This document shows positions 48,049-64,000 of a stretch of DNA of 64,000 nt, in pieces. Under the pieces are notes generated by a model, which saw only the letters and a list, made by a program, of their open reading frames with translations, made no database searches and was not told where the DNA came from. Made by a program: the position numbers and the translations under genes. Where the stretch lies: NCBI RefSeq assembly GCF_003336875.1, contig NZ_QGNJ01000011.1:1-64000 (forward strand), in the 5' to 3' direction. The DNA comes from Oleisolibacter albus (GTDB lineage Bacteria; Pseudomonadota; Alphaproteobacteria; Azospirillales; Azospirillaceae). The first letter of the stretch is position 1. Every line of letters begins with the position of its first letter.

Positions 48049-49245
48049 ATGCAGACCCGTCCGCTCGCGGCCGCCCAGACCGCCCTCGACCAGCTGATCC
48101 GGCAGCGGCCCCTGGACCGGCCGCAGGAGCTGGAGACCGCCGCGGCCCTGGGCCGCGTGCTGGCGCGCGACGTGGCGGCCCCGCTGGCGCTGCCGCCGGC
48201 GGCGCGGGCCGCGGTGGACGGTTTCGCCCTGCGGGCGGAGGACAGTGTCGGCGCCAGCGCCTACAACCCGGCCACCCTGACATTGCAGATGCCGGACATG
48301 GCCTGCCTGCCCGGCACGGTCCTGCCCGTCACCGCGGGCTGGCCCCTGCCGGCGGGGGCCGACGCCGTGCTGCCGCTGCATCTGGCCCAGCTGGCCGGGG
48401 GCGTGCTGGAGGTGCTGGCCAATCTGGCCGCCGGCGACGGGGTGGAGCGGCCGGGACAGGATGTGGCGGCGGGCGCCGTCGTGCTGGAGGCCGGCCGGCG
48501 GCTGCGCAGCATGGATCTGACGCTGGCCACGGCGCTGGGCCTGTCCAGCCTGCCCGTGCGGCCGCAGCCGCGGGTGCGCCTGATCTCCGCCAGCCGGCAT
48601 CTGGTCGCCGCCGGCCCGGCGGCGCTGCCGGACAGTGTCGATGCGGCGGGGCTGCTCTATCCCGGCCTGATCGCCCGCGACGGCGGCGTGCTGGAGCGCC
48701 ATGTGCGGCCGGCGGGGGCGGGACAGCCGGTGGACCTGCGGGCGGCGCTGACCGATCCCGGTGCCGACCTGATCCTGGTCTGCGGCGGGGCCAGCCCCGG
48801 CTCGCTGGACCGGTCAGCCATCCTGCTAGCCGGGGTGGGGGAGCTGGACTGGCAGGGTGTGGCCCTGCGGCCCGGCGAACTGGCCGGGGCCGGCCATGTG
48901 GACGGGGTGCCGGTCCTGCTGCTGCCGGGCAGCCCGGCGGCGGGCTTGACCGCCTATGAGCTGCTGGCCGGGCGGGCCGTGCGCCGGCTGGCCGGGCTGG
49001 ACCCGGCCCTGCCGCACCGGCGGGTGCGCCTGCCGCTGGGCGGGCGCAAGCTGACCTCTGAGATCGGGGTGGTGGAGCTGGTGCCGGTGCGGCTGGCCGG
49101 ACAGTCGGTGCTGCCGCTGCCGCTGGGCTTCGGGCTGGGTACGCTGGTCCAGGCCGACGGCTTCGTGCTGGTGCCGGCGGCGGCGGAGGGCTATGCCCCC
49201 GGCACCCCGGTGGAGGTTCATCTGTTCGATGCCGCGGATCTGTGA
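48049..49245 (+). CDS. MoeA-like molybdopterin protein, probably degenerate
   Basis: A 398-aa protein with the overall MoeA/GlnE-type fold: the N-terminal part has D-G-F-A-L-R-A-E-D and the C-terminal part Q-A-D-G-F-V-L-V-P. In active MoeA the middle domain reads S-T-G-D-E; here the corresponding text is S-A-S-R-H, and K-P-G-K-P is replaced by R-P-G-E-L. This suggests loss of molybdate-insertase activity, or a changed role. It starts 16 bp after the secreted-protein gene and is followed by a second MoeA. The pair serves a locus encoding a molybdenum formate dehydrogenase. Confidence 0.75.
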   Translation: MQTRPLAAAQTALDQLIRQRPLDRPQELETAAALGRVLARDVAAPLALPPAARAAVDGFALRAEDSVGASAYNPATLTLQMPDMACLPGTVLPVTAGWPLPAGADAVLPLHLAQLAGGVLEVLANLAAGDGVERPGQDVAAGAVVLEAGRRLRSMDLTLATALGLSSLPVRPQPRVRLISASRHLVAAGPAALPDSVDAAGLLYPGLIARDGGVLERHVRPAGAGQPVDLRAALTDPGADLILVCGGASPGSLDRSAILLAGVGELDWQGVALRPGELAGAGHVDGVPVLLLPGSPAAGLTAYELLAGRAVRRLAGLDPALPHRRVRLPLGGRKLTSEIGVVELVPVRLAGQSVLPLPLGFGLGTLVQADGFVLVPAAAEGYAPGTPVEVHLFDAADL

Positions 49246-49267
49246 CGCCGGCGGTGTCAGGTTGGGG

Positions 49268-51241
49268 ATGCATGTGATGTCCGAGTCCGATCCCGGCGCC
49301 TTCCTGCGCCGCGCCGCCCGGCAGGAGCAGTTCCTGGCCGTGGTCGACCGGGAGGAGGCCACGCGCCGGTTCCATGCCCATCTGGACCTGACGCCGCGGC
49401 ACGAGACAGTGGCGCTGGATGCCGCCCTGGACCGGGTGCTGGCGGCGGATGTGCGGGCCGGCGTGGACGTGCCGCTGTTCGACCGTTCGGGCGTGGACGG
49501 CTTCGCCCTGCGCGCCGCCGATACGGCCACGGCTTCGGACACAGCACCGGTGCGGCTGCGCCTGAACCCGGAGGTGCTGGCCTGCGGTGTGGCGCCCACG
49601 GGCGCGGTGGCCGCCGGCACGGCCACGGTCATCGCCACCGGCGGCATGGTCCCGCGCGGGGCCGACGCCGTGGTCATGGTCGAGCACACCGATCTGGAGG
49701 AGGCGGCGGACGGGCTGTGGCTGCATCTGCGCCGGGCGGCGGCACCGGGCCAGTTCATCGCGTCCGCCGGCAGCGACATCGGCCGGGGCGAGACGGTGCT
49801 GCGCCGGGGACAGCGGCTGACCAGCCGCGAGATCGGCGTGCTGGCCGCCATCGGCCAGGCGGAGGTGACGGCGGTGCGGCGGCCCCGGGTCGCCATCCTG
49901 TCCACCGGCGACGAGATCGTGGCGCCGGGCCAGCCGATCCGGCCGGGCGCCGTCTATGACAGCAATGCCGCCATCCTGGCCGCCGCCGTGCGCGAGGCCG
50001 GGGGCGAGCCGGTGCCGCTGGGCATCGCCGGCGACGACGAGACGGTGCTGGCGGCCAGGGTGCGGCAGGGGCTGGACGGCGCCGATCTGCTGCTGCTGTC
50101 CGGCGGCACCTCGAAGGGGGCGGGCGATGTCAGCCACCGCATCATCGCCGGGCTGGGGCCGCCCGGCATCCTGGTGCATGGCGTGGCCATCAAGCCGGGC
50201 AAGCCGGTCTGTCTGGCCGTGGTCGAGGGCAAGCCGCTGGTGCTGCTGCCGGGATTCCCCACCAGCGCCATTTTCACCTTCCATGAATTCGTGGCCCCGG
50301 TGATCCGGGCCCTGGCCGGGCTGCCGGCCGCGGCGGCGGAGACGGTGGAGGCGGTGCTGCCGCTGCGCCTGCCGTCGGAGCGGGGCCGCACCGAATATGT
50401 CATGGCCGGGCTGGTGCGGACCGAGGCGGGGCTGGCCGCCTATCCCCTGGCCAAGGGGTCGGGCGCCGTCACCGGCTTCGCCCAGGCCGACGGCTTCTTC
50501 GCCGTGCCGGCGCAGACCGAGATGGTGGAGGCCGGGACACGGGTCACGGTCCAGCTGATCGGCCATGACCTGAAGCCGGCCGATCTGGTCATCATCGGCA
50601 GCCATTGCGTCGGGCTGGACCTGCTGCTGGGGGCGCTGCCCGGCCTGTCGGTGCGGCTGCTGGCCGTGGGCAGCATGGGCGGGCTGGCCGCGGCCCGGCG
50701 CGGCGAGTGCGATCTGGCCCCGATCCACCTGATGGACCCGCAGAGCGGCCGCTACAATGTCGATTTCCTGGCGCCGGGGCTGGAGCTGGTGCGCGGCTAC
50801 GGCCGGCGGCAGGGGCTGGTGTTCCGGCCCGGCGATCCCCGTTTCGCCGGCCAGGAGGATGCGGCGGCGGCGGTGCGGGCGGCGCTGGCCGATCCCGACT
50901 GCCTGATGGTCAACCGCAATGCCGGGGCCGGCACGCGCATCCTGCTGGACCGGCTGCTGGCCGGGGTGCGGCCGCCGGGCTACTGGAACCAGGCCCGCTC
51001 CCACAATGCCGTGGCCGCCGCCGTGGCCCAGGACCGCGCCGACTGGGGCATGGCCATCGACACGGTGGCCCGCGACTATGGGCTGGGCTTCCTGCCGGTG
51101 CAGGACGAGCAGTACGACTTCGTGGTGCCGCAGGCGCGGCGCGACAGGCCGGCGGTGCAACGGTTCCTGTCGTTGCTGACCGAAGCCGGCATGCGCGGCC
51201 GTCTGGCCGCGCTGGGCTTCAAACCGGGAGAGCCGACATGA
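49268..51241 (+). CDS. MoeA fused to a periplasmic-binding-protein-like domain
   Basis: A protein of about 657 aa. The first 400 residues are a full MoeA with D-G-F-A-L, S-T-G-D-E-I-V, S-G-G-T-S-K-G-A-G-D and K-P-G-K-P, the molybdenum insertase of molybdopterin cofactor synthesis. The last 230 residues form a PBP-like domain of the LysR/ModA type (G-S-H-C-V-G-L-D-L-L, then N-R-N-A-G-A-G-T-R-I). Such fusions occur in archaea and bacteria; the extra domain may bind molybdate or tungstate. The ATG at 49277 is an alternative start. It overlaps the next small gene by ATGA. Confidence 0.88.
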   Translation: MHVMSESDPGAFLRRAARQEQFLAVVDREEATRRFHAHLDLTPRHETVALDAALDRVLAADVRAGVDVPLFDRSGVDGFALRAADTATASDTAPVRLRLNPEVLACGVAPTGAVAAGTATVIATGGMVPRGADAVVMVEHTDLEEAADGLWLHLRRAAAPGQFIASAGSDIGRGETVLRRGQRLTSREIGVLAAIGQAEVTAVRRPRVAILSTGDEIVAPGQPIRPGAVYDSNAAILAAAVREAGGEPVPLGIAGDDETVLAARVRQGLDGADLLLLSGGTSKGAGDVSHRIIAGLGPPGILVHGVAIKPGKPVCLAVVEGKPLVLLPGFPTSAIFTFHEFVAPVIRALAGLPAAAAETVEAVLPLRLPSERGRTEYVMAGLVRTEAGLAAYPLAKGSGAVTGFAQADGFFAVPAQTEMVEAGTRVTVQLIGHDLKPADLVIIGSHCVGLDLLLGALPGLSVRLLAVGSMGGLAAARRGECDLAPIHLMDPQSGRYNVDFLAPGLELVRGYGRRQGLVFRPGDPRFAGQEDAAAAVRAALADPDCLMVNRNAGAGTRILLDRLLAGVRPPGYWNQARSHNAVAAAVAQDRADWGMAIDTVARDYGLGFLPVQDEQYDFVVPQARRDRPAVQRFLSLLTEAGMRGRLAALGFKPGEPT

Positions 51242-51444
51242 ACCAGGATGTCTTCAACATCGAGCTGCGCAAATTCCTGAAACAGGTGGGCGTGACCAGC
51301 CAGCGCGCCATCGAGCAGGCCGTGGCCCAGGCCCTGGCCGAGGGGCGCCTGAGCGGGAGCGAGACGCTGAAGGCCCGGATGGTGCTGACGGTGGAGGCGG
51401 CCGGCCTGACCCATGAGGTGGTGGACGAGATTGCGCTGGACTAG
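51238..51444 (+). CDS. DUF6494 small protein
   Basis: A 68-aa helical protein starting M-N-Q-D-V-F-N-I-E-L-R-K-F-L-K-Q-V-G-V-T-S. This fits the DUF6494 family, found near formate dehydrogenase genes. No catalytic motif is seen; it may be a structural accessory. Its start overlaps the MoeA stop (ATGA), and its last 32 bases overlap the start of the WD40-cytochrome gene. Confidence 0.75.
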   Translation: MNQDVFNIELRKFLKQVGVTSQRAIEQAVAQALAEGRLSGSETLKARMVLTVEAAGLTHEVVDEIALD

Positions 51445-52762
51445 GCGGCGTCCTCTCGCGGCCGTCCTGGCGGCGGCGCTGGCGCTGCTGGCGGGGCCGG
51501 CGGCGGCGGAATTCGTCGGCCATGGCGGGCCGGTGCGCGGCCTGGCCCTGACCCCGGACGGCCACACGCTGCTGAGCGCCAGCTTCGACTATTCGGTGAT
51601 CCGCTGGAACCTGGAGACCGGGGCGGCCGAGGCCGTGCTCTATGGCCATGACGCGGCGGTCAACGCCGTGGCGCCGGTGCCGGGCGGGTTCGTCAGCGCC
51701 AGCGACGATGGCAGCCTGGCCCTGTGGTCCTTCGACCGGGCCACGCCGGTCCGGCGGCTGACCGGGCATGCCGGCCGGGTGGTGGCGCTGGCGGTGTCGC
51801 CGGACGGCCGCCGCGCGGCCTCGGCCGCCTGGGACCGGAGCGTGCGGCTGTGGGACCTGGAGACGGGGGCGGCGATCCGCACGCTGGAGGGGCACCGCGG
51901 GCCGGTCGATGCCGTGGCCTTCACCCCCGACGGCACCCTGCTGGCCAGCGCCGGGGCCGACGGGACCGTGCGGCTGTGGCGCGTGGCAGACGGAACCGCA
52001 CTGGCGACCCTGGCCGGCAGCGGCACCGCCATCCATGCGCTGGCCCTGTCGCCGGACGGGACGAGGCTGGCCGCCGCCGGGGCGGACGGTGCCGTGCGGA
52101 TCTGGCCGCTGCCGGGGGGCCGGGCGGCCGCACCGGGACCGGAGACCGGGCCGGAGACGGTGCTGACGGCCCCGGTGCCGGGGCCGCTGCTGGCGCTGGC
52201 CTGGTCCGGCCCGCATCTGGCCGCCACCGGCATCGACGGGGCGGTGACGGTGTGGCAGGGACAGGCGGTGCGCTGGCGCCTGGGCGGCGACCGCGGACCG
52301 CTGTGGGCCGTGGCCTTCTCCGCCGATGGCGGCACGGTGCTGGCCGGCGGCACTGACCGCATGATCCGGCAATGGAGCCTGGAGACGGGGCGGGAACGCG
52401 ATGCGCCGGTGGCCGTGCGCGCCCTGCCGGCCGAGGCCGGACTGCCCGCAGACCCGGTGGGGGAGCGGCTGTGGAAGCGCTGTTCCGCCTGCCATACGCT
52501 GACACCGGACGGGGGCAACCGGGCGGGGCCGACGCTGTACGGCGTCATCGGTCGGCCCATGGGCGCCGTTCCCGGCTACCCTTATTCCCCGGCCTTCCGC
52601 AGCGGCCACATCGTCTGGACCGAGGCGGCCATCGACGATCTGTTCGCCCGCGGCCCCGACACGGTCACCCCCGGCACCAAGATGCCGGTGCAGACCATCC
52701 CCGACCCGGCCGAGCGGGCGGCCCTGATCGCCTTCATCAAGCGGGCCGGGGCGGGCCGGTGA
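51413..52762 (+). CDS. Exported WD40-repeat cytochrome c fusion
   Basis: A 449-aa protein. A twin-Arg-like basic N-terminus leads into a signal peptide (L-A-A-V-L-A-A-A-L-A-L-L-A-G-P-A-A-A). About seven WD40 blades follow (repeats such as V-R-L-W-D-L-E-T-G-A-A and G-H-x-G-x-V), then a class I cytochrome c domain with heme site C-S-A-C-H near residue 360 and a likely axial Met in T-K-M-P-V. It would carry electrons in the periplasm while docking through the propeller. Its position before the bicarbonate transporter and near the formate dehydrogenase suggests an electron acceptor for formate oxidation. Confidence 0.85.
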   Translation: MRWWTRLRWTRRRPLAAVLAAALALLAGPAAAEFVGHGGPVRGLALTPDGHTLLSASFDYSVIRWNLETGAAEAVLYGHDAAVNAVAPVPGGFVSASDDGSLALWSFDRATPVRRLTGHAGRVVALAVSPDGRRAASAAWDRSVRLWDLETGAAIRTLEGHRGPVDAVAFTPDGTLLASAGADGTVRLWRVADGTALATLAGSGTAIHALALSPDGTRLAAAGADGAVRIWPLPGGRAAAPGPETGPETVLTAPVPGPLLALAWSGPHLAATGIDGAVTVWQGQAVRWRLGGDRGPLWAVAFSADGGTVLAGGTDRMIRQWSLETGRERDAPVAVRALPAEAGLPADPVGERLWKRCSACHTLTPDGGNRAGPTLYGVIGRPMGAVPGYPYSPAFRSGHIVWTEAAIDDLFARGPDTVTPGTKMPVQTIPDPAERAALIAFIKRAGAGR

Positions 52763-52834
52763 CCCTGCGCACGGCTTCTGGACAAGGGGCGGCCGGTCAT
52801 GGTCAATCCTGCGCAGGTTGCAAATGGAGGACCC

Positions 52835-53797
52835 ATGGCGGGGATCGATGCGCTGCTGTCTCCGGTGATCCTGTTCTTCGTGCTGGGCGCGGCGGCGGCC
52901 TTCGCCCGCTCCGATCTGGCCATTCCCGAGGCGGTGGCGAAGGGCATCTCGCTCTATCTGATGGCGGCCATCGGCCTCAAGGGCGGGGTGCAGGTGGCGG
53001 CCAGCGGCCTGTCCACCGACATGGCCCTGGCCGCGGCGGCCGGGCTGGCGCTGAGCTGCCTGCTGCCGCTGCCGGCCTATGCCGCCCTGCGCCTGTTCGG
53101 GCGGCTGGACGGGGTCAATGCCGCCGCGGTCGCCGCCCATTACGGCTCGGTCTCCGTCGTCACCTTCGTCACCGGGGCCGAGGTGCTGACCAGCGCCGGG
53201 CATCCGCCGGCCGGCTATATGGTGGCGGTGCTGGCGCTGATGGAGACGCCGGCCATCATCGTCGGCCTGATGCTGGCCCGCCGCGCCGCCCGGGTCGAGG
53301 CGCAGCCCAAGGGCGCCCTGCTGCATGAGACGCTGCTGAACGGCTCGGTCGTGCTGCTGACCGGCAGTTTCGTGATCGGGCTGGTGGCCGGCAAGCCCGG
53401 CTTTGCCCCCATCGCGCCGGTGTTCGAGACGGCCTTCCGCGGCGTCCTTTGCCTGTTCCTGCTGGATATGGGGCTGGTGGCCGCCCGCCGCCTGCGCGAG
53501 GCGCGGGCGCTGACGGCGCGGCTGGCGCTGCTGGGGCTGCTGTTCCCGCTGGTCCATGGCAGCATCGGCGTGCTGCTGGGCAGCGCGCTGGGGCTGGAGG
53601 CGGGATCGGCGGCGGCGCTGGGCATCCTGGCGGCCAGCGCCTCCTACATCGCCGTGCCGGCGGCCATGCGCCTGGCCCTTCCCCAGGCCGATCCGGGGCT
53701 TTATCTTGCCATGTCCCTGGCGGTGACCTTCCCCTTCAACATCACGGTGGGGCTCCCGCTCTACACCGCCCTTGCCCTGCGGATGGCCAGCCCATGA
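52835..53797 (+). CDS. SbtA-like sodium-dependent bicarbonate transporter
   Basis: A 320-aa membrane protein with about ten helices. The start D-A-L-L-S-P-V-I-L-F-F-V-L-G, the helix A-H-Y-G-S-V-S-V-V-T-F, and the later A-A-S-A-S-Y-I-A-V-P-A-A-M are characteristic of SbtA, the Na+-bicarbonate symporter described in cyanobacteria. GGAGGA precedes the ATG at 52835. Its stop overlaps the next gene (ATGA). In a formate dehydrogenase locus it could import, or balance, bicarbonate made from formate; direction is inference. Confidence 0.88.
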   Translation: MAGIDALLSPVILFFVLGAAAAFARSDLAIPEAVAKGISLYLMAAIGLKGGVQVAASGLSTDMALAAAAGLALSCLLPLPAYAALRLFGRLDGVNAAAVAAHYGSVSVVTFVTGAEVLTSAGHPPAGYMVAVLALMETPAIIVGLMLARRAARVEAQPKGALLHETLLNGSVVLLTGSFVIGLVAGKPGFAPIAPVFETAFRGVLCLFLLDMGLVAARRLREARALTARLALLGLLFPLVHGSIGVLLGSALGLEAGSAAALGILAASASYIAVPAAMRLALPQADPGLYLAMSLAVTFPFNITVGLPLYTALALRMASP

Positions 53798-54105
53798 CCG
53801 GAACCGTTCCCCGCCGCAAGATCGAAGTGCTGGTGGATGCGCCGCTGCTGCCGCGCCTGACCGCCCTGGCCGCGGCGGCCGGCGTGACCAGCTACACCCT
53901 GTTCCCCGCCCTGGGCGGCAGCGGTGCCGGCGGGCGCTGGAGCGAGGATCAGGTGACCGGCGCCCAGTCGAAGCTGCTGTTCATGGCGCTGATGGCCGAG
54001 GAAAAGGCCCAGACCCTGGTCGCCGCCCTGGAGCCGCTGCTGGAAAGCCACGGGCTGCTGCTGATGAGCAGCCGGGTCGAGGTGGTGCGCGGCGGCAAGT
54101 TCTGA
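53794..54105 (+). CDS. SbtB-like PII-family regulator
   Basis: A 103-aa PII-like protein. The ferredoxin-like order is visible: K-I-E-V-L-V-D (strand 1), helix L-T-A-L-A-A-A-A, V-T-S-Y-T-L-F (strand 2), a T-loop-like G-G-S-G-A-G-G-R-W-S-E-D, then S-K-L-L-F-M-A-L and a C-terminal strand S-S-R-V-E-V-V-R-G. In cyanobacteria SbtB binds adenyl nucleotides and controls SbtA. The ATGA overlap with sbtA supports that pairing. The C-terminal redox CGPxGC loop of cyanobacterial SbtB is absent. Confidence 0.8.
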   Translation: MTGTVPRRKIEVLVDAPLLPRLTALAAAAGVTSYTLFPALGGSGAGGRWSEDQVTGAQSKLLFMALMAEEKAQTLVAALEPLLESHGLLLMSSRVEVVRGGKF

Positions 54106-54133: not shown

Positions 54134-56152
54134 TCAGGCCTTGTAATCCTCCGCTGTGCGCGGGCGGGGGCGGTCCGGGCCGGCATAGGGATCGATGCTG
54201 CTGCTGGCCTGGGCGACGACGCGGCAGTCCGCGCACATGCGCACGCGGTCGATGGGATTGTCGCCCAGCCCGGCGCTGGCGCCGGCATACATCCAGTGCT
54301 TGCCCTGGAGCTTGGACACGATCTTCTCCACCGTGGCCCTGGTGCCGAAGGGCTTGCCGCAGCTGATGCAGTGGTACGGCTCCTCCTCCTTCACCGGCAC
54401 GGCGCTGCGGGCGGTCCCGGTGAAATCCAGCTGCGGGCGCAGGCTGATGACCTTCTCCGGGCAGGTGGCCTTGCACAGGCCGCACTGCACGCAGGCATCC
54501 TGGGTGAAGGCCAGCTGCGGGCGCTCGGGATTGTCGGACAGGGCGCCGGTGGGGCAGACCTGGACACAGGCCAGGCACAGGGTGCAGCCATCGACGTTGA
54601 TGTCCAGCGTGCCGAAGGGGGCGCCCGGCGGCAGCGGCAGCACCTCCACCGGGGCAGGCGCCGCGGCGTGCAGCTGGCGCAGGCTGAGCTTCATCAGGGC
54701 GCGCTTGTCGCCCATAGGCAGGAAGGGACGGGCGCTGCCGCCCGCCCGTGCCGGCAGGGCCGCCAGCAGGCCGGCCAGCGCGTCGGGATCGTCGGCCTCC
54801 AGCATGCCGCAGCGGCCGGAGCCGTAGCCCAGCCCGCTGGCCACCGTCTCCGCCAGGCCCAGGACTTTGGCCGTGGCCAGCATGTCGTCGCGCGGGCGGG
54901 TGGAGGCCAGCAGCCGCACCTCGGCGGCGCCATAGGCCAGGGCGGCGGCGAAGAACTCGATGCCCAGCTGGGTCAGCGCGTTGACGGCGACGGGGATGAC
55001 CCGGGCCGGCAGCCCGTCGCCCCAGCGCGACAGCAGGTCGATCAGCGGCGCGCCATGCTCGGCCTCATGCACCAGCAGCACGGCATCGCGGCCGCCGGCG
55101 GTGTGGTAGGTCTCCAGCAGGGTGCGCAGCCGCTCCAGCAGCGTGTCGGCCGGCGGCAGCGCGTAGCTGGCGGCGCCGGTGGGGCAGACGGCATGGCAGC
55201 TGCCGCAGCCGGCGCAGATGAACGGGTCCAGCGCCACATGGTCGCCGTCGGGGGTGATGGCACCGGTGGGGCAGACCTCCAGGCAGCGGGTGCAGCCCGT
55301 GCGCCGGTTGCGGCCATGGGCGCAGAGGTCGGCGCGGTAATCCACATATTTCGGCTTGTCGAACTGGCCGACCAGATCGGCGGCCCTGGCCAGCAGGGCC
55401 TGCACCGCGCCGGGGCTGCCGGGGTCGGCGCGCAGATAGCCGTCACGCTTGTGCGCGGCGGAGAACAGCGGCGTGCCGCCGGTCAGGTCGATGATGAGGT
55501 CGCAGCGGCTGCTGGCCCCGTCGCGGGACGGGCCGAAGGCCAGCGCCCGGCGGGAGGAGGGGGCGGGCAGGGCATAATCGTCGACGATGATCTCAAAGGC
55601 GCCGAGATGGCCCTTGGCGATGCGGATATGGCCCTTCAGCACGGGAAAGTCGGTGCTGGCGGGCGGCAGCACTGCGCCCGGCCGGTCCAGCAGCACGGTG
55701 ACATCCAGCCGGTCGGCCAGCTGGCGCGCGGCCTCGATCGCCGTCTCGTCGCGGCCATAGACCAGGGCCACGCCCTCCGACGTCAGGCCGACCAGGGGCG
55801 TCTCCGGCCGGGTCAGCGTCGCCTCCGCCAGCAAAGCGGCGATCTTCGGCGTGGCCGCCGCGGCCTCGGCCGACCAGCCGGCGCGCTCGCGGATATTGAC
55901 CAGGGTCAGCGCGTCCGGGTCGCCGCCGACCTCCTCCACCGTCTCCTCGAACACGGCGCGTTCCTGGGTGCAGGCGATCAGCAGCGGGCCGGCGGTCCCC
56001 GCCGCCCGGGCCAGCCGGTCCCGCTCGCCGCGGCAGAGCTGGTGGGAAAGGGTGGGGGCGGCCTGTCCGCAGGCCTTGCCCAGGGCGGCGGCATCCAGGG
56101 GCATGGTGCCTTCACAGGAGCACAGCAGCACCGTGCGGCCGTTCAACTTCAT
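54134..56152 (-). CDS. Large 4Fe-4S polyferredoxin-like protein
   Basis: A 672-aa protein with four ferredoxin-type clusters arranged in two pairs: C-x2-C-x3-C-P (C-T-R-C-L-E-V-C-P and C-A-G-C-G-S-C-H-A-V-C-P) near residues 285-325, and C-T-L-C-L-A-C-V-Q-V-C-P with C-V-Q-C-G-L-C-K-A-T-C-P near 520-570. The C-terminus has C-I-S-C-G-K-P-F-G and a later C-A-D-C, perhaps a zinc or further cluster. The N-terminus L-L-C-S-C-E-G-T resembles an HdrA-like start. It may pass electrons from formate dehydrogenase to quinone or ferredoxin. It is divergent from the ligase-like gene. Confidence 0.87.
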   Translation of the reverse strand: MKLNGRTVLLCSCEGTMPLDAAALGKACGQAAPTLSHQLCRGERDRLARAAGTAGPLLIACTQERAVFEETVEEVGGDPDALTLVNIRERAGWSAEAAAATPKIAALLAEATLTRPETPLVGLTSEGVALVYGRDETAIEAARQLADRLDVTVLLDRPGAVLPPASTDFPVLKGHIRIAKGHLGAFEIIVDDYALPAPSSRRALAFGPSRDGASSRCDLIIDLTGGTPLFSAAHKRDGYLRADPGSPGAVQALLARAADLVGQFDKPKYVDYRADLCAHGRNRRTGCTRCLEVCPTGAITPDGDHVALDPFICAGCGSCHAVCPTGAASYALPPADTLLERLRTLLETYHTAGGRDAVLLVHEAEHGAPLIDLLSRWGDGLPARVIPVAVNALTQLGIEFFAAALAYGAAEVRLLASTRPRDDMLATAKVLGLAETVASGLGYGSGRCGMLEADDPDALAGLLAALPARAGGSARPFLPMGDKRALMKLSLRQLHAAAPAPVEVLPLPPGAPFGTLDINVDGCTLCLACVQVCPTGALSDNPERPQLAFTQDACVQCGLCKATCPEKVISLRPQLDFTGTARSAVPVKEEEPYHCISCGKPFGTRATVEKIVSKLQGKHWMYAGASAGLGDNPIDRVRMCADCRVVAQASSSIDPYAGPDRPRPRTAEDYKA

Positions 56153-56275: not shown

Positions 56276-57010
56276 ATGAATAGACTGCCCGCCGCATCGC
56301 CGGTGGTCAGCCTTCCGCCGCCGTTCCAGCCGGTGTGCTGCGGCCCGTCGGATGCGCTGCTGCGGGCCGTGGCCGAAGCTGAGGCCGAAGCCGGGGCCGC
56401 CACCCTGGTCTACGGCACCCGCCCCGACCGGTTCGACGTGGCTGTGGTGTTCGAGCCGGAGCTGCCGCTGGCCCGCGCCCGCGGCATCGGGCCGGTGATG
56501 ATGCTGGCCATGGCCGATGCGCTGAGCACGCTGGGACCGCCGCAGAAGGACCCGCAATTCGACTGGCCCGACCGCATCCTGGTGGACGGGGCGCTGGTGG
56601 GCGGCGTGGCCGTGACCGCCGCCGCCCTGAGCACGGAGGCGGCGGTGCCGGACTGGCTGGTGGCCGGGGTGCAGCTGCGCCTGTCCTTTCCGGCCGACCT
56701 GACCGATCCCGGCCGCACGCCGGAGCGCACGGCCCTGTATGAGGAGGGATTCGGCGCGGTGGAGCCGCTGCCGCTGCTGGAATCCTTCAGCCGCCACCTG
56801 CTGCTGCATGTCAGCCGCTTCCTGGAGGAGGGGTTCGAGCCGCTGGCGCAGGACTGGCTGACGCGGCTGACGCCGGCCCGGACCCGGGGGTCCGTGCGCC
56901 ACGGGCTGGACCCGCTCACGGGCGATCTGCTGCTGCTGGAGCCGGGATCGGCCAGGCCCCGGCGGGAGAGCCTGGCGGCGGCCCAGGCCCGCCCGAGCTG
57001 GACGCTCTGA
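56276..57010 (+). CDS. Biotin/lipoate protein ligase-like protein without the usual lysine
   Basis: A 244-aa protein related to the BPL/LplA fold, with D-W-P-D-R-I-L-V-D-G-A-L-V-G-G-V at about residues 95-110, aligning with K-W-P-N-D-L and the lysine-bearing strand of BirA. The position of the catalytic lysine (R-K-L-A-G in BirA) reads G-A-L-V-G here, so normal adenylate chemistry is doubtful. GGAGG precedes the ATG. Relatives occur in formate dehydrogenase loci of alphaproteobacteria; the role is unknown. The next gene starts 1 bp after its stop. Confidence 0.7.
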   Translation: MNRLPAASPVVSLPPPFQPVCCGPSDALLRAVAEAEAEAGAATLVYGTRPDRFDVAVVFEPELPLARARGIGPVMMLAMADALSTLGPPQKDPQFDWPDRILVDGALVGGVAVTAAALSTEAAVPDWLVAGVQLRLSFPADLTDPGRTPERTALYEEGFGAVEPLPLLESFSRHLLLHVSRFLEEGFEPLAQDWLTRLTPARTRGSVRHGLDPLTGDLLLLEPGSARPRRESLAAAQARPSWTL

Positions 57011-57011
57011 G

Positions 57012-57548
57012 ATGGAGGCGGCGCGCACGCTGCCCCGCACGCTGCGGCTGGACGCCTCCGACCGCTTCGTGTTCGACATGGCGGCCGAGCCGGGGGAATG
57101 GGCCGTGTCCGGCGCCTTCGCCTTCCTGGGCGGGGACCCGGCGGCGCTGACGGGCAAGCGGCGGCAGGCCTTCAGCAACGGCTTCCTGGGCCTGGACAGT
57201 CTGGGCTGGTCCACCATGGTCACCGTCGCCACGGCCACGGCGGACGAGGCGGCGGCGGCGGTGCGGGCGCTGGCCCGCCGGCTGGTCGAGGATTTCGGCT
57301 GCCCGACCGCGGAGATGGCCCGGGCGGCGGCGGCGGAGGAGGTGGCGTTCGCCGCCGAGCTGTGCCGGGAGCATCCGCCGGGCACGCTGCTGGCCGTGTC
57401 GCGGCGCGTGGAGGCGGACGGGCAGATCCGCGAGGCCTTCCGGGTGGTGCCGCCGCCCGGCGAGCGGGATCATGCCCGCATCTGGACGATTGTTCCGGAT
57501 ACGGAACAGAATGCCGCCGGCAAAGGCGGCAAGGAGGATGGGGCGTGA
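57012..57548 (+). CDS. DUF6505-like formate dehydrogenase accessory protein
   Basis: A 178-aa protein beginning M-E-A-A-R-T-L-P-R-T-L-R-L-D-A-S-D-R-F-V-F, with a helical Glu/Ala-rich centre. It fits the DUF6505 family that travels with formate dehydrogenases. No catalytic motif was seen. Its GTGA overlap with the following gene indicates coupling. Confidence 0.7.
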   Translation: MEAARTLPRTLRLDASDRFVFDMAAEPGEWAVSGAFAFLGGDPAALTGKRRQAFSNGFLGLDSLGWSTMVTVATATADEAAAAVRALARRLVEDFGCPTAEMARAAAAEEVAFAAELCREHPPGTLLAVSRRVEADGQIREAFRVVPPPGERDHARIWTIVPDTEQNAAGKGGKEDGA

Positions 57549-58567
57549 GCCGCGATTTCTGGATCAGTTCCGGCCATCATCTGCTGGACAGGGCCGACAA
57601 TGGCGGGCTGGTGGCCACGCCGGATTTCCTGCGCGCCTTCCTGGCGCGGCCGGAGATGGCCCCGGTGCCGGAGTCCGGCCCGCGGGAACGGGCGCTGCAT
57701 CAGGCGCTGCTGGCCGACCCGACCCTGCGCGTGGACGAGGCCACGCTGGCCGCCATCGAGGATGCGGACGGGCGGGAGAATTACGCGGTCTGGCTGGGTT
57801 TCCGCGACCGGCTGCTGGCCCAGCCGACGCTGGAGGCCGCCTATCTGGGGCTGATGCGCGGCGGGGTCGGCCGGGTGCCGGCCCTGTTCCTGGACCAGCT
57901 GGTGCATCTGATCCTGCGCAACATGCTGGACGGCTGCGCCGATCCGCTGCTGCTGCGCGCGGCGGAATGCCTGTTCCGGGCCCAGCGCGTGTCGATCCAG
58001 GAGGGGGGCATCCTGCTGGCCGACGAGGAGGTGGTGGAGCAGCGGGCCACCACCGGCGGCTTCGGCACTCTGGCCCAGTTGCTGGCCCAGGCCGGCACGG
58101 CGCCGCGCAGCGTCGATCTGGATGTGCTGCACGCCGAGAGCGCCGACCAGTACTGGGAGCGGTCCGACCGCTTCGACATGGTGCTGGACGTGGCCTTCAC
58201 CCGGCCCGGCCTGGACGCGCTGGCGCGGGTGCTGGAACGCTGGGTCGCCCATTTCACCGGCGTCCGCGTCTCCATCCAGCCGGTGCAGACCATCCGCGAC
58301 GCGCGCTGGGTCTGGCATGTGGGGCTGGACGGGGAGGCCAGCCGCAGCCTCAATGCCATGTGGCGGGGGGAAGACGTGCCCCAGGCCGATCTGGCGCGGG
58401 TGCTGTCGCTGTTCCGGCTGGACTTCGCCGATCCCGGCGACATGCTGGAGCGGGTGGCCGGGCGGCCGGTCTATCTGGCCATGGCCATGACCGGGGCCAG
58501 GACCCTGCGGCTGAAGCCGCAGAACCTGCTGTTGAACCTGCCGTTCCGCGAGGGCGGCGCCAATTGA
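57545..58567 (+). CDS. DUF6352 family protein
   Basis: A 340-aa protein that starts with a GTG overlapping the previous stop and reads S-R-D-F-W-I-S-S-G-H-H-L-L-D. This matches DUF6352 and suggests a soluble accessory protein. No signal peptide or metal-binding cluster is visible. It belongs to the same operon as its neighbours and probably helps assemble or insert cofactor into the formate dehydrogenase. Confidence 0.75.
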   Translation: MSRDFWISSGHHLLDRADNGGLVATPDFLRAFLARPEMAPVPESGPRERALHQALLADPTLRVDEATLAAIEDADGRENYAVWLGFRDRLLAQPTLEAAYLGLMRGGVGRVPALFLDQLVHLILRNMLDGCADPLLLRAAECLFRAQRVSIQEGGILLADEEVVEQRATTGGFGTLAQLLAQAGTAPRSVDLDVLHAESADQYWERSDRFDMVLDVAFTRPGLDALARVLERWVAHFTGVRVSIQPVQTIRDARWVWHVGLDGEASRSLNAMWRGEDVPQADLARVLSLFRLDFADPGDMLERVAGRPVYLAMAMTGARTLRLKPQNLLLNLPFREGGAN

Positions 58568-58600
58568 GACCGGCGGCGGACCGCCGGAGGGAGAAGGCCG

Positions 58601-59113
58601 ATGGGCATGGTCGTGGAGCGCATGCCGGTGGGGGTGGTGGTGGAGCGGCGGCCCGCCGCCAGCCGCTGGGCCGACTGGGTCTGGCGCATCGCCGGCGTGC
58701 TGCCCGGATCGCCGCAGACGCCGCCCTGGACCGTGCTGTCCGAGGTGGACGGCGTGACCACCTTCTATGCCGGCACCGCCGACATCACGCTGTATTCGGC
58801 CGAGACGGAAACCTATGAGCCGGCGGTGCAGAGCCAGGCCCCGGCCGTCTATGTGGTGCTGCGCCGGGGCGAGACGCCGTCGGGGTGGGCGCTGCTGCTG
58901 GCCACGGTCGATGCCGGCGAGGCCCATGCCCATGCCGACAGCGGCGACGATCTGATGGAGGCCGTGCCGATGCCGGCGCTGGTGCGCGACTGGGTGGCCG
59001 CCTTCTTCGCCACGCACCATGTGGAGCGGCCGCGGTTCAAGCGCAAGCGCGACAAGGCCGACCCGGAAGCGTTGGCCATGGGACGGCGCCGCGGTCCCGG
59101 CGGCGACCTGTAA
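58601..59113 (+). CDS. DUF3305 family protein
   Basis: A 170-aa protein starting M-G-M-V-V-E-R-M-P-V-G-V-V-V-E-R-R. The two repeats of V-V-E-R and the acidic-basic pattern fit DUF3305, a marker of the FdnG-type formate dehydrogenase operons. GGAGGGAGAAGG precedes the start. The tail is basic (R-F-K-R-K-R-D-K). Molecular role is not known. Confidence 0.8.
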   Translation: MGMVVERMPVGVVVERRPAASRWADWVWRIAGVLPGSPQTPPWTVLSEVDGVTTFYAGTADITLYSAETETYEPAVQSQAPAVYVVLRRGETPSGWALLLATVDAGEAHAHADSGDDLMEAVPMPALVRDWVAAFFATHHVERPRFKRKRDKADPEALAMGRRRGPGGDL

Positions 59114-59128
59114 CGCCCGGAGCCGGCG

Positions 59129-59923
59129 ATGAGCGACGATGAGAGCAGCTTCCTGTCCCGCTGGTCGCGGCTGAAGCGCGACGCGCGGGCGCCCCGGCCG
59201 GCGGCACCGCCGGCACCGCCGGTGGCGGGAGTGGGGCCGGTGGCGGGCGAGGGGACGCCGGTCCAGGGCCGGGCGGCCCGGGGAACACCGGATGGGGGCG
59301 CGGCGGACGCGGCGGCGGCCGGGGCCGTGCCGGCGGCCGGTGCAGCGGCCGAGGAGAGCGTCGATCTGGACAGTCTGCCCCCCATCGACAGCCTGGGGGC
59401 CGACAGCGACTTCACCCAGTTCCTGCGCAAGGGCGTGCCGACGGCGCTGAAGAACGCCGCTCTGCGCAAGCTGTGGGCCGCCGACCCCGCCATCGCCAAT
59501 TACAGGACCTTCGCCGAGTATGACTGGGACTTCAACGCGCCCGGCTATGGCCAGCTGCTGCCCACCGACGATGTGAAGAAGGCGGTGGACGCCCTGTTCA
59601 AGACCATGGACGGGATGACGGGCGAGCGGCCCGGGGCCGAATCCGGGCCGGAGACGGCAGCCGCCGCCGGGGGGGACGATGAGCCGGCGCGCCCGTCCGC
59701 GGGACCGGCGGAGGAGACCGGGCCGGGAGAGCCGGACCTGTCCCGCCCGCAACCGCTGCCGGCGTCCGCTCCGCCCGCATCCGCTCCGGCTGTGCTGCCG
59801 CCCCTGCCGCAGTCGGTGCCGCCTGTGCCGCCGGTTCCAGCGGCCGCCCCCGTCCCGGTCGAGGCCGCTCCGCCCGGGACCCCGCCGCGCCGCCGCCGCC
59901 ATGGTGGGGCTGTGCCGCGGTGA
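59129..59923 (+). CDS. DUF3306 family protein
   Basis: A 264-aa protein that begins M-S-D-D-E-S-S-F-L-S-R-W-S-R-L-K-R, the DUF3306 start, with the conserved centre D-S-D-F-T-Q-F-L and Y-D-W-D-F-N-A-P-G-Y. The remainder is an unusually long Pro/Ala/Glu-rich tail with no fold visible. It pairs with DUF3305 in formate dehydrogenase operons. It starts 16 bp after DUF3305. Confidence 0.8.
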   Translation: MSDDESSFLSRWSRLKRDARAPRPAAPPAPPVAGVGPVAGEGTPVQGRAARGTPDGGAADAAAAGAVPAAGAAAEESVDLDSLPPIDSLGADSDFTQFLRKGVPTALKNAALRKLWAADPAIANYRTFAEYDWDFNAPGYGQLLPTDDVKKAVDALFKTMDGMTGERPGAESGPETAAAAGGDDEPARPSAGPAEETGPGEPDLSRPQPLPASAPPASAPAVLPPLPQSVPPVPPVPAAAPVPVEAAPPGTPPRRRRHGGAVPR

Positions 59924-60257
59924 TGCCGCCGGCAGCGTGTCCGCGACCGGCCGTTGACGTAGTTGCCGTTCCGTCGGAGTCCGGCCCGTTGCATCCCGTC
60001 ATTGGTGGAAACCAAAGAAAGACTTTGCAGAAACATGCAAATTTTACTGCGAGCCATTATTAACTTGGTGCGCGGCCGCGCGGTATTTTGCTGAACGAAG
60101 CATTAACCTCGAAAGCCCCTTGCCTTGACGTTTTTTGTCGCACTAACATCTTCATGATACGGGCCTGATGCCTGTCTGTTGGGCAGAACCGCTTTCGCAG
60201 ACCGGGAAGCCCGTGCTGATGTCCATTTCTGGCGATGATCGAGGGAGGCAAGGGGAC
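59924..60257 (+). promoter_or_regulatory. Intergenic region with promoter and TTTGCA dyad
   Basis: 334 bp without a supported gene; AT-rich between 60005 and 60155. It contains a dyad TTTGCA-GAAACA-TGCAAA at 60024-60041, a perfect 12-bp palindrome GCGCGGCCGCGC at 60070-60081, and a possible -35 TTGACG near 60125. A promoter for the torD-fdhA transcript is likely here. Confidence 0.4.
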
Positions 60258-60947
60258 GTGTCGGACGCGCCGGACAATCGTGCCGCGTTTGCGCGCACCG
60301 CATCGGCCGCGGCACCGGCTGCGGCACCGGCTGCTGCACCGGCGGCGCCATCGGCTGCGGCTGCCCGGCCCGTTCTTGACGAGGCCGACCTGCTGCGCGC
60401 CCGGCTCTGGTCGCTGCTGGGCGGCCTGCTGGCGGCGGCGCCCGATGCCGATCTGCTGCGCCGCCTGTCCGCCCTGTCAGGCGATGCCTCTCCTTTGGGC
60501 ATGGCGCTGAGCGAGCTGGCCCGGCGGGCCGCCACCGCCACGCCCCATGCCGCCGAGCGTGAATACCATCGGCTGTTCATCGGGGTGGCGCGCGGGGAGC
60601 TTGTCCCCTATGCCTCCTTCTATCTGACCGGCTTCCTCAACGAGAAGCCGCTGGCCCGGCTGCGCGCCGACATGGCGCGCCTGGGCATCGGCCGCGCGGA
60701 GGGATCGTCCGACCCCGAGGACCACATGGCCAGTCTGGCCGAGATGATGGCCGGGCTGATCGCCGGGGAGTTCGCGGCCGGTCTGCCGCAGCAGCGCCAG
60801 TTCTTCGACCGCCACATCGCCCCCTGGGCCGGCCGCTTCTTCGCCGATCTGGAACGGGCCGAGGGCGCCGCGCTCTATGCCCCGGTGGGGGCCATCGGGC
60901 GGCTGTTCATGGAGATCGAGGCGCAAGCCTTCGTCCTGGCGGCCTGA
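60258..60947 (+). CDS. TorD-family molybdoenzyme chaperone
   Basis: A protein of about 229 aa. An Ala/Pro-rich N-terminal stretch is followed by a helical domain with R-A-R-L-W-S-L-L-G-G-L-L-A, E-Y-H-R-L-F-I-G-V and P-Y-A-S-F-Y-L-T-G, then D-H-M-A-S-L-A-E-M-M. This is the TorD/DmsD chaperone fold that binds Tat signals of molybdoenzymes. A GTG at 60258 with GGGAGG and AAGGGGA is favoured; ATG at 60219 is the alternative. It is followed by the Tat-target protein and the formate dehydrogenase alpha chain. Confidence 0.87.
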   Translation: MSDAPDNRAAFARTASAAAPAAAPAAAPAAPSAAAARPVLDEADLLRARLWSLLGGLLAAAPDADLLRRLSALSGDASPLGMALSELARRAATATPHAAEREYHRLFIGVARGELVPYASFYLTGFLNEKPLARLRADMARLGIGRAEGSSDPEDHMASLAEMMAGLIAGEFAAGLPQQRQFFDRHIAPWAGRFFADLERAEGAALYAPVGAIGRLFMEIEAQAFVLAA

Positions 60948-61069
60948 GAGGGCGGCCAGGACGTATTCGTGTGTCAGGGCCGGCAAGGATCCGGGGTTCG
61001 GACCCGGCCGGCGCCCGCCGTTCAAAGGCCGGAACGGCCGCGGCGGGTTTTCAGGGAGAGGGTAGGACG

Positions 61070-61294
61070 ATGTCGGTCAAGAACGGTCAGGCGGACGACA
61101 CGGCCGGAGGTTCCGGGCTGGAGCGCCGCGACTTCCTGCGGGCGCTGGGCAGCACGGCCGCCGGGGCCGCCGTGGCCGCGCCGCTGCTGGCGGCCGGCCC
61201 GGCCCAGGCCAAGGAAACCGGGGCGGAGCGCACGAAGGCCCGCTATCGGGAAACCGAGCACGTCAAAGCCTATTACCGGACCAACCGGTACTGA
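61070..61294 (+). CDS. Formate dehydrogenase region Tat-target protein
   Basis: A 74-aa protein with a twin-arginine signal: L-E-R-R-D-F-L-R-A-L-G followed by a hydrophobic stretch A-A-G-A-A-V-A-A-P-L-L-A-A. The short mature part ends A-Y-Y-R-T-N-R-Y. This small Tat substrate is a known marker of such formate dehydrogenase operons. AGGGAGAGGGTAGGA lies upstream. Function is unknown, possibly an assembly helper. The formate dehydrogenase starts 19 bp downstream. Confidence 0.88.
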   Translation: MSVKNGQADDTAGGSGLERRDFLRALGSTAAGAAVAAPLLAAGPAQAKETGAERTKARYRETEHVKAYYRTNRY

Positions 61295-61313
61295 GATCGG
61301 GGAGGCACGACCC

Positions 61314-64000
61314 ATGCTGATCAAGCGCAGCGCCGCGCCGCGGCCGTCCGCGTCCCGCAGCCGTATCGCCGATGCCTTCGCCAGCGTCGCTGGCGCCCCG
61401 GTGGACCGCCGCAGCTTCCTGCGCCGGTCCGGTCTGGCGGCGGGCGGACTGGCCGCCGTCGGCACCCTGTCCCTGACCACGGTGCGCAAGGCCGAGGCCG
61501 GCCCGACCATTCCCGGCGTCCCCACCGAGATCAGGAAGAACGTCTGCACCCACTGTTCCGTGGGCTGCACCGTCACCGCCGAGGTGCAGAACGGCGTGTG
61601 GACGGGGCAGGAGCCCAGCTTCACCAGCCCGATCAATATCGGCACCCATTGCGCCAAGGGCGCCTCGGTGCGCGAGCTGGTGCATGGCGACCGCCGCCTG
61701 AAATATCCGATGAAGCTGGAAGGCGGCGAGTGGAAGCGCATCGGCTGGGACCAGGCCATCGACGAGATCGGCAGCAAGCTCACCGCCATCCGCGACGCCT
61801 CCGGCCCGGACAGCGTGTTCCTGCTGGGCTCCGCCAAGTTCACCAACGAGGCGGCCTATCTGTTCCGCAAGTTCGCGGCCTTCTGGGGCACCAATACGGT
61901 CGACCACCAGGCCCGCATCTGCCACAGCACCACCGTCGCCGGCGTGGCGAACACGTGGGGCTACGGCGCCATGACCAACAGCTACAACGATATCAACAAT
62001 TCCAAAGCCATCATGATCATGGGCGGCAACCCCGCCGAGGCGCACCCGGTGTCGCTGCAGCATGTGCTGCGCGGCAAGGAGGTGAACCGCGCCCAGATGA
62101 TCGTGGTGGACCCGCGCTTCACCCGCACGGCGGCGCACGCCACCGAATATGTGCGGCTGCGCCCCGGCTCCGACATTCCCCTGATCTGGGGCATGCTCTG
62201 GCACATCTTCGAGAATGGCTGGGAAGACAAGGAATATATCCGCCAGCGCGTTTACGGCATGGACGAGATCCGCAAGGAAGTCGGCAAATGGGCGCCGGCC
62301 GAGGTGGAGCGGGTCACGGGCGTGCCGGGTGAGCAGGTCCGGCGCATCGCCGAGATCATGGCCAAGAACAAGCCCAGCACCCTGATCTGGTGCATGGGCA
62401 TCACCCAGCACACCGTGGGCACGGCCAATGTCCGCGCCCTGTCGATCCTGCAGCTGGCGCTGGGCAATATCGGCGTGGCCGGCGGCGGCGCCAACATCTT
62501 CCGCGGCCACACCAACGTGCAGGGCGCCACCGACCTGGGCCTGGATGTCACCACGCTGCCCGCCTATTACGGGCTGGCGGAAGGGGCCTGGAAGCACTTC
62601 GCCCGCGCCTGGGAGGTTGATTACGAGTATCTGCTGAACCGCTTCGGCAAGGCGGACATGCCGCGCGATGCCAAGAAGAAGCTGATGGAGGCCAAGGGCA
62701 TCCCGACGACCCGCTGGTTCGACGGCGTGCTGAACGAGGCCAAGGACGTGGACCAGCCGGACCTGATCCGCGGCATGGTCGTCTTCGGCCATGGCGGCAA
62801 CACCGTCACCCGCATGCCCGAGGTCAAGACCGGCATCGAGAAGCTGGAGCTGCTGGTCGTGGCCGACCCGCACCCCACCACCTTCGCCGCCCTGTCCGAC
62901 CGCAGGGACGGCACCTATCTGCTGCCGATCTGCACCAATTTCGAGACGGCCGGGTCCCGCACCGCCTCCAACCGCTCGCTGCAATGGGGCGAGCAGGTGG
63001 TGAAGCCGATCTTCGAGTCCAAGGACGATTACGAGGTCCTGTACCTGCTGTCGCGCAGGCTGGGCTTCGCCGACCAGATGTTCAAGAACATCAAGGTCGA
63101 CGGCGTGCATCCCGAGCCCGAGGACATCCTGCGGGAGATCAACCGCTCCTGCTGGTCGATCGGCTATACCGGCCAGTCGCCGGAACGCCTGAAGCTGCAC
63201 ATGAAGCATCAGGCCGATTTCGACAAGATAACCCTGCTGGGCCGCGAGGGTTCCCCGGTGGCCGGGGACTATTACGGCCTGCCCTGGCCGTGCTGGGGCA
63301 CGCCGGAGCTGAAGCACCCCGGGACCCATGTGCTCTATGACACCTCCAAGCATGTCATGAAGGGCGGCGGCGCCTTCCGCGCCCGCTTCGGCGTGGAGCG
63401 CAACGGCGAGAGCCTGCTGGCCGACGGCAGCTATTCCGCCGGCTCCGAGATCGAGGACGGCTATCCCGAATTCACCTACGGCATGCTGAAGAAGCTGGGT
63501 TGGGACAGCGACCTGACGGCCGAGGAGCTGGCCGTGATCCAGCGCGTCGGCGGCGCCAGCCCCGATGGCGTGTCCTGGACCACCGACCTGTCCGGCGGCA
63601 TCCAGCGCGTGGCGCTGCTGCATGGCTGCTCGCCCATGGGCAACGCCAAGGCCCGCGCCGTGGCCTGGAACCTGCCCGACCCGATCCCGGTCCACCGCGA
63701 GCCGATCTACACCAGCCGCCCGGATCTGGTGGCCCAGTATCCGACCCGCGACGACAGCCGCGATTTCCGCGTGCTGAACATCGGCCGCACCGTGCAGACC
63801 AAGGCGGTGGAGCAGAAGCTGGCGGACAAGTTCCCCATCCTGCTGACCTCCGGCCGTCTGGTCGAATATGAGGGCGGCGGCGAGGAGACCCGGTCCAACA
63901 AGTGGCTGGCCGAGCTGCAGCAGGACATGTTCGTCGAGGTCAATGTGGACGATGCCCGGCGCCTGGGCGTCCGCGACGGCGGCATGGTCTGGGTCTATGG
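61314..64000 (+). CDS. Formate dehydrogenase alpha subunit, Tat-exported molybdenum enzyme (3' truncated by window)
   Basis: At least 895 aa of an open frame that continues past the window end. A Tat signal D-R-R-S-F-L-R-R-S-G lies near residue 32. The N-terminal cluster motif is C-T-H-C-S-V-G-C followed by a fourth Cys in H-C-A-K-G. The active-site cysteine is in A-R-I-C-H-S, so this is a cysteine rather than selenocysteine enzyme. Motifs N-T-V-D-H-Q and G-G-N-P-A-E-A-H-P follow. It oxidises formate in the periplasm with a bis-MGD cofactor, passing electrons to iron-sulfur and cytochrome partners not seen here. Confidence 0.95.
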   Translation, partial: MLIKRSAAPRPSASRSRIADAFASVAGAPVDRRSFLRRSGLAAGGLAAVGTLSLTTVRKAEAGPTIPGVPTEIRKNVCTHCSVGCTVTAEVQNGVWTGQEPSFTSPINIGTHCAKGASVRELVHGDRRLKYPMKLEGGEWKRIGWDQAIDEIGSKLTAIRDASGPDSVFLLGSAKFTNEAAYLFRKFAAFWGTNTVDHQARICHSTTVAGVANTWGYGAMTNSYNDINNSKAIMIMGGNPAEAHPVSLQHVLRGKEVNRAQMIVVDPRFTRTAAHATEYVRLRPGSDIPLIWGMLWHIFENGWEDKEYIRQRVYGMDEIRKEVGKWAPAEVERVTGVPGEQVRRIAEIMAKNKPSTLIWCMGITQHTVGTANVRALSILQLALGNIGVAGGGANIFRGHTNVQGATDLGLDVTTLPAYYGLAEGAWKHFARAWEVDYEYLLNRFGKADMPRDAKKKLMEAKGIPTTRWFDGVLNEAKDVDQPDLIRGMVVFGHGGNTVTRMPEVKTGIEKLELLVVADPHPTTFAALSDRRDGTYLLPICTNFETAGSRTASNRSLQWGEQVVKPIFESKDDYEVLYLLSRRLGFADQMFKNIKVDGVHPEPEDILREINRSCWSIGYTGQSPERLKLHMKHQADFDKITLLGREGSPVAGDYYGLPWPCWGTPELKHPGTHVLYDTSKHVMKGGGAFRARFGVERNGESLLADGSYSAGSEIEDGYPEFTYGMLKKLGWDSDLTAEELAVIQRVGGASPDGVSWTTDLSGGIQRVALLHGCSPMGNAKARAVAWNLPDPIPVHREPIYTSRPDLVAQYPTRDDSRDFRVLNIGRTVQTKAVEQKLADKFPILLTSGRLVEYEGGGEETRSNKWLAELQQDMFVEVNVDDARRLGVRDGGMVWVY

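Follow-up and report, generated by a model that had tools for sequence, protein, structure and literature searches.

SbtA and SbtB have been studied almost wholly within the cyanobacterial CO2-concentrating mechanism, and a gene pair of this kind in Oleisolibacter albus raises the question of what such a module does in an alphaproteobacterium. The pair lies in a stretch of 64,000 nucleotides (the window), where an earlier note had described it as an SbtA/SbtB-like pair in a likely non-phototroph. The reading that we judge most likely, and hold with moderate confidence, is a nucleotide-gated bicarbonate supply module for carboxylation, in which an SbtA-family transporter would be paired with a PII-like plug. 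The relevant features of the window are as follows.

49193-51241, upstream of the pair: fusion of MoeA with a PBP-like domain (PF12727), beside a second MoeA-like gene
51413-52762, + strand: WD40 repeat protein (Pfam) with a C-terminal cytochrome c-like CxxCH segment (by eye), 72 bases upstream of sbtA
52826-52830, + strand: GGAGG, likely ribosome-binding site of sbtA (sequence)
52835-53797, + strand: sbtA, SbtA-family transporter, 320 aa (PF05982, PDB match, model, Foldseek)
53141-53155, + strand: YGSVS, sbtA residues 103-107, aligned with Synechocystis F110-S114; S107 corresponds to the HCO3- ligand S114 (alignment; PMC8352866)
53636-53653, + strand: SASYIA, sbtA residues 268-273, aligned with Synechocystis S322-S327; D325 is replaced by Y and S327 by A (alignment)
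53794-53797, + strand: ATGA stop/start overlap of sbtA and sbtB (sequence)
53794-54105, + strand: sbtB-like gene, PII family, 103 aa, without C-terminal R-loop (PF00543, CPII/SbtB matches, model and fold search)
53938-53940, + strand: TGG codon of Trp49 in the T-loop of the SbtB-like protein (conservation given below)
54134-56152, - strand: multi-[4Fe-4S] protein, convergent, at the edge of a formate dehydrogenase cluster (Pfam Fer4 families)
56276-64000, + strand: formate dehydrogenase cluster, comprising BPL/LplA-like, DUF6505, DUF3305, DUF3306, TorD-like chaperone and catalytic subunit genes (Pfam, TIGR01591)

The pairing of an SbtA-family gene with an SbtB-like gene is real, both by Pfam scores and by recurrence in relatives, and the ATGA overlap is present as described. 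The larger open reading frame matches the SbtA family profile PF05982 (TC 2.A.83) at 379.3 bits (cut-off 27) over positions 1-307 of the 308-position profile, and its nearest solved chain in a PDB sequence search is Synechocystis SbtA (E=4.5e-22). The smaller one matches PF00543 (P-II) at 31.9 bits (cut-off 25), with CPII of Thiomonas intermedia (E=3.7e-5) and then Cyanobium SbtB (SbtB7001, E=0.037) as its nearest solved chains. NCBIfam gave no name above cut-off for either protein. Linkage to sbtA and the family scores rule out a chance open reading frame for the small protein, and a defence system was discarded for want of any PADLOC match.

AlphaFold models, built on 63-row and 64-row alignments of the window proteins and their relatives, agree with these assignments. 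For the transporter (pLDDT 94.1), the five best Foldseek matches are all SbtA (TM 0.74-0.83, 26-28% identity); bile-acid symporters come next. By sequence and by fold, the transporter falls within the SbtA family. The small protein is modelled with a PII fold (pLDDT 89.6). Searched against the PDB, this model comes closest to CPII (TM up to 0.92, for 5d4n), followed by a Thermus PII-like protein and the SbtB proteins of Cyanobium and Synechocystis (TM 0.60-0.75). The models thus give a transporter that is genuinely of the SbtA family and a small protein whose predicted fold is nearer to CPII than to SbtB. Both outcomes that the earlier note named as refuting it are thereby contradicted. CPII, which is likewise proteobacterial and which we take to be linked to a carboxysome operon, is about 24% identical to the window protein; the latter differs in being tied to SbtA.

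The SbtA/PII-like pair is widespread in Alphaproteobacteria. An SbtA alignment, run against named genomes, confirmed 437 relatives; the best 80 of these, our named loci, come from Sphingomonadales, Hyphomicrobiales, Rhodobacterales, Spiribacter and others. An SbtB-like open reading frame follows sbtA in 77 of these best 80. Two of the three loci without a partner have 288 and 49 bases of contig left after sbtA; the third (L094) has 2077 bases and no SbtB-like partner within them. An independent class-wide search found SbtA within 1.5 kb of a PII-like match at 30/30 loci (the best 30 of 57 genomes with a match). Partner lengths range from 97 to 108 aa in the 77 relatives, and the ATGA overlap is seen at 15 of the 77 pair loci.

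PF05982 is present in 45 genomes of a 194-genome sample. These include a second SbtA group, mostly from the genus Azospirillum, with lower scores and often an adjoining LysR gene; no SbtB was seen beside this group in the sample. In some genomes (G004, G171 and G109), SbtA or the SbtB-like gene is present twice, the two copies belonging to different groups. Downstream of sbtA on an Arthrobacter plasmid lies an open reading frame of the PII family that is annotated as a hypothetical protein (L135:3944-4246; PF00543, 74.7 bits). A locus titled Candidatus Kuenenia (L093) encodes an SbtB-like protein that groups with Alphaproteobacteria, for which a misbinned contig or a transfer is possible.

The host genome (4.69 Mb, 100% complete) returned no Photo_RC match in a profile search, in keeping with the non-phototroph of the earlier note, yet it holds a Calvin-cycle region with cbbL (RuBisCO large subunit), cbbX, FBPase, PRK, transketolase, aldolase and a CbbR-like regulator. 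From this gene content, the host is probably a non-phototroph able to fix CO2. It also encodes one beta-carbonic anhydrase, away from the pair, and two ordinary PII proteins. Because the Calvin-cycle operon is present, SbtA in this host is unsurprising, and the oddity that had been implied for SbtA outside phototrophs falls away on the published record as well: a passage of PMC10880623 places SbtA in non-phototrophic autotrophs, and one in PMC10030771 notes an SBT permease in SAR11 heterotrophs, pointing to carbonic anhydrase and anaplerosis. A heterotrophic role of SbtA is, in that passage, already in print as an idea (PMC10030771).

Turning to the PII-like partner, we found the C-terminal CGPxGC extension to be absent, as had been claimed; the protein ends in RGGKF. 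CGP is found in 0/77 of the relatives, and a missing R-loop is the rule for this alphaproteobacterial branch. It is, however, no evidence of a different ligand, which the earlier note had thought possible, since Cyanobium SbtB naturally lacks the R-loop and binds ATP, ADP, AMP and cAMP according to PDB entry titles and a portion of PMC10991534. The T-loop (Y34-F63) spans 30 residues in the window protein and 29-31 across the 77 relatives, compared with 31 in Cyanobium SbtB, 31 in CPII and 34 in the host GlnB/GlnK. The loop described as short is therefore short relative to ordinary PII proteins and not relative to SbtB, which rules out a truncated T-loop. Overall, the window protein shares the tail-less PII fold and near-equal T-loop length of Cyanobium PCC 7001 SbtB at about 22% identity; relative to Synechocystis SbtB, it lacks the R-loop and differs in T-loop content.

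The proposal that contact with SbtA may differ thus loses its argument from T-loop length but gains one from T-loop content. The column of Trp49 holds W in 77/77 named relatives, Ser in Cyanobium SbtB, and Tyr in CPII and GlnB. This Trp is kept in 26 of 30 class-wide loci (the best 30 of 57 genomes). It is not universal, being absent in 4/30 class-wide loci and in two of seven extra proteins from other genomes (L004 and L007, the latter from the same GTDB family as the host). In a further protein (L009), a Trp is present but displaced. Because the T-loop of Synechocystis SbtB inserts into a hydrophobic cleft in its transporter (PMC8352866), Trp49 is by analogy a good candidate for the plug residue in the SbtA contact.

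A tree of PII-like proteins sets the host GlnB/GlnK apart from the window protein by a 100/100 branch, which, together with a T-loop four residues shorter, rules out a canonical GlnB/GlnK identity. In this tree, which rests on 104 columns with long branches, many open forks and one reference each for SbtB and CPII, the window protein pairs with a Rhodospirillaceae MAG protein inside a mainly Sphingomonadales/Hyphomicrobiales clade (95/86), and three PII-like proteins from the host's own GTDB family are placed elsewhere (99/93). This placement, along with the lack of shared neighbours described below, suggests that the pair may be a cassette that moves.

The transporter departs from its cyanobacterial counterpart at the predicted substrate pocket. 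In Synechocystis SbtA, HCO3- is docked to S114, Y140, S324 and S327; an Ala at any of these positions leaves 10-40% of transport, and each is needed for full transport (PMC8352866). The aligned window residues are S107, L133, S270 and A273, so the four side chains of SbtA1, which are not a Pfam family trait, are not all present in the window protein (S, L, S, A). Compared with Synechocystis SbtA1-SbtB (Slr1512 and its partner), gene order, both families and folds, S114, S324 and glycine 111 are the same; the transporter is 26-28% identical to the solved chains, with Y140, D325, S327, F110 and A112 replaced. The 80 named relatives all keep S114, and at Y140 they have L, A, M, V or T; where the residue is present, S324 is S, S327 is A and D325 is Y in 78/78 each.

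The same pocket pattern recurs in 9/9 members of the second SbtA group, in 19 further sequences (save S327 = V in two) and in 7/7 plasmid homologues from Alphaproteobacteria, Bacteroidota, Actinomycetota and Bacillota (7 of 16 matching plasmid records); class-wide loci read S.SYI[A/V].P in 30/30 (the best 30 of 57 genomes). The non-cyanobacterial SbtAs seen here thus share a pocket unlike that of SbtA1, a comparison in which the sequence sets overlap slightly and the cyanobacterial side is one sequence. With two of the four ligand side chains missing, substrate or affinity may differ from those of Synechocystis SbtA. Cyanobacterial 'SbtA-like' proteins are described in an excerpt of PMC11890772, and SbtA2/SbtB2 of marine Synechococcus, similar by description in joining an SbtA-family transporter to its own PII-like partner, is reported to have a chloride-dependent SbtA2 with a Km of about 150 uM (PMC13249358, in part).

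What recurs beside the pair speaks to its substrate. Clustering of open reading frames across 98 stretches gave one outstanding neighbour family (32/98) besides the pair itself and antisense frames, and this family is a beta-carbonic anhydrase (one member typed, 142.5 bits). Among the 80 named loci, 28 have it next to the pair, 17 directly downstream of sbtB and 11 directly upstream of sbtA. Since 46 of the 50 pair genomes hold between one and four beta-carbonic anhydrase genes, we estimate chance adjacency to be of the order of 0.1%. The two positions, in different gene orders, suggest that carbonic anhydrase and the pair have become associated repeatedly. No carbonic anhydrase adjoins the window's own pair, but across relatives this adjacency is the best evidence that bicarbonate would be the substrate.

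These observations are consistent with the following mechanism for a bicarbonate supply module. The SbtA-family elevator transporter would bring in, or hold in, bicarbonate, and the T-loop of the PII-like trimer would plug its cytoplasmic side according to adenine-nucleotide state and possibly bicarbonate. The plugging is modelled on SbtB; the ligand role is suggested by CPII, whose PDB entry titles name ADP, AMP and bicarbonate. Bicarbonate would then go to carboxylases, via carbonic anhydrase where CO2 is needed: in this host to RuBisCO and anaplerotic enzymes, in most carriers to anaplerotic and biosynthetic carboxylases alone. For most carriers, this would not be a carboxysome-type concentrating mechanism. 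In favour of bicarbonate supply we count family and fold, gene linkage, the carbonic anhydrase neighbours, the host cbb region, the cbb neighbours of a plasmid homologue (L137, below), the CPII ligands and the scarcity of RuBisCO matches among pair genomes (4 of 50). Weighing against it are the two replaced HCO3- ligands, the pair in the window without a carbonic anhydrase, the formate-type neighbours, and the low identity of the window protein to CPII and SbtB.

Those neighbours raise the possibility, which we regard as unlikely, that the host transporter moves formate, or exchanges formate for bicarbonate, on behalf of the adjacent formate dehydrogenase, with the PII-like protein shutting it under energy surplus or at toxic formate levels. 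The pair does sit between two MoeA-like genes with the WD40/cytochrome c-like gene on one side and the formate dehydrogenase cluster on the other, whose catalytic subunit starts at about 61359 and is cut by the window end (TIGR01591, Fdh-alpha, 438.7 bits against a cut-off of 666). Support also comes from Shewanella oneidensis SO_3758, which by published description has the pocket residues of the window protein at the same numbers (S268, A269, S270, Y271, I272, A273): according to sections of PMC12093963, an A269-to-T change confers formate tolerance, and the wild-type protein raised the formate tolerance of Zymomonas. A formate:bicarbonate antiporter has been suggested in another context (PMC10880623, in a passage).

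However, docking to wild-type SO_3758 gave weaker binding of formate than of bicarbonate in those same sections of PMC12093963, and because the Fe-S gene is convergent, the pair and the formate dehydrogenase cluster do not form one transcript. Formate dehydrogenase-side neighbours, moreover, were found in 0/20 fetched stretches (two of them RuBisCO stretches) and 0/87 further loci, with flanks of 6-10 kb at most, which rules out formate dehydrogenase linkage as a family trait. The MoeA-like and WD40 genes upstream likewise did not recur near sbtA in these 20 stretches and 87 loci, where the recurring element is the sbtA/sbtB-like pair itself. It is carbonic anhydrase, and not formate dehydrogenase, that returns as a partner. 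Separately, the WD40/cytochrome c-like gene could share a transcript with sbtA.

Gene content raises a further alternative, a module linked to light that across the family would serve anoxygenic photoheterotrophs fixing CO2 anaplerotically on light-derived ATP and that this host would keep after losing, or without, photosynthesis; we consider this improbable. We looked at 50 pair genomes, hand-picked from the 77 pair loci to thin near duplicates and so not random: 27 have reaction-centre genes, and 46 have no RuBisCO-family match (four do, two of them strong). Linkage to RuBisCO is weak as a family trait, with matches below E=1e-100 in 4/14 pair genomes against 39/194 overall in the 194-genome sample, by our own count. 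In an independent sample of 385 Alphaproteobacteria drawn by tool, 57 match the PII-like profile, 25 match Photo_RC and 15 match both. A PII-like gene is accordingly present in 15/25 reaction-centre genomes and 42/360 others (odds ratio 11.4, one-sided Fisher p=6.6e-8, with kinship ignored); at E<=1e-15, the figures are 13/25 and 34/360. The 25 reaction-centre genomes represent 19 families, and 14 of these, among them the host's, have a PII-like match.

Two species of the host's genus have reaction centres, but neither of these phototrophs carries the PII-like gene. The association statistics also ignore descent, 42 of the 57 PII-like carriers in the 385-genome sample have no reaction centre, and the tree groups the window protein with Sphingomonadales/Hyphomicrobiales and not with the three family members, a placement that points to transfer and away from descent from a phototrophic ancestor. 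A literature search returned, judging by titles, no paper on a link between SbtA and anoxygenic phototrophs, and a search joining sodium-dependent bicarbonate, carbonic anhydrase, PII and Sphingomona returned nothing, nor did one on CPII. Finally, that the PII-like protein is a free CPII-type sensor with another target, merely co-transcribed and plugging nothing, is suggested by its closest structural match (CPII, ahead of SbtB) and made very improbable by its near-complete linkage to sbtA.

The pair as headlined in the earlier note is ordinary, but its branch is a distinct, testable variant. More unusual features, which that note did not see, are the alteration of the pocket, the association with carbonic anhydrase, the over-representation in RuBisCO-less anoxygenic phototrophs and the formate dehydrogenase neighbourhood. 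Extending the bicarbonate supply reading, we tentatively propose a RuBisCO-independent SbtA-SbtB branch, possible but on present evidence doubtful in its full form, that would unite a transporter with the SASYIA pocket, a CPII-like plug tipped by Trp and, in many cases, a beta-carbonic anhydrase. It would have spread horizontally as a small cassette favoured in anoxygenic photoheterotrophs, adjusting the flux of bicarbonate (or formate/bicarbonate) to the energy state of the cell in the service of anaplerotic carboxylation, and would here have been placed beside formate dehydrogenase. If so, the alphaproteobacterial form would make anaplerotic bicarbonate supply in photoheterotrophs directly testable. 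It would also offer naturally altered versions of a substrate site whose main residues proved necessary in Synechocystis, and these could help to settle whether SbtA recognizes bicarbonate or also formate.

A different arrangement is seen on a Cereibacter sphaeroides plasmid (L137), where an SbtA homologue without SbtB, of the same pocket type as the window protein, has an OxyR-like regulator on one side and, on the other, a LysR gene followed by cbbL-cbbS-cbbQ. Plasmids of Aureimonas, Maritalea and Tritonibacter also have OxyR-like or LysR genes, as labelled in the record annotation, in the vicinity of SbtA.
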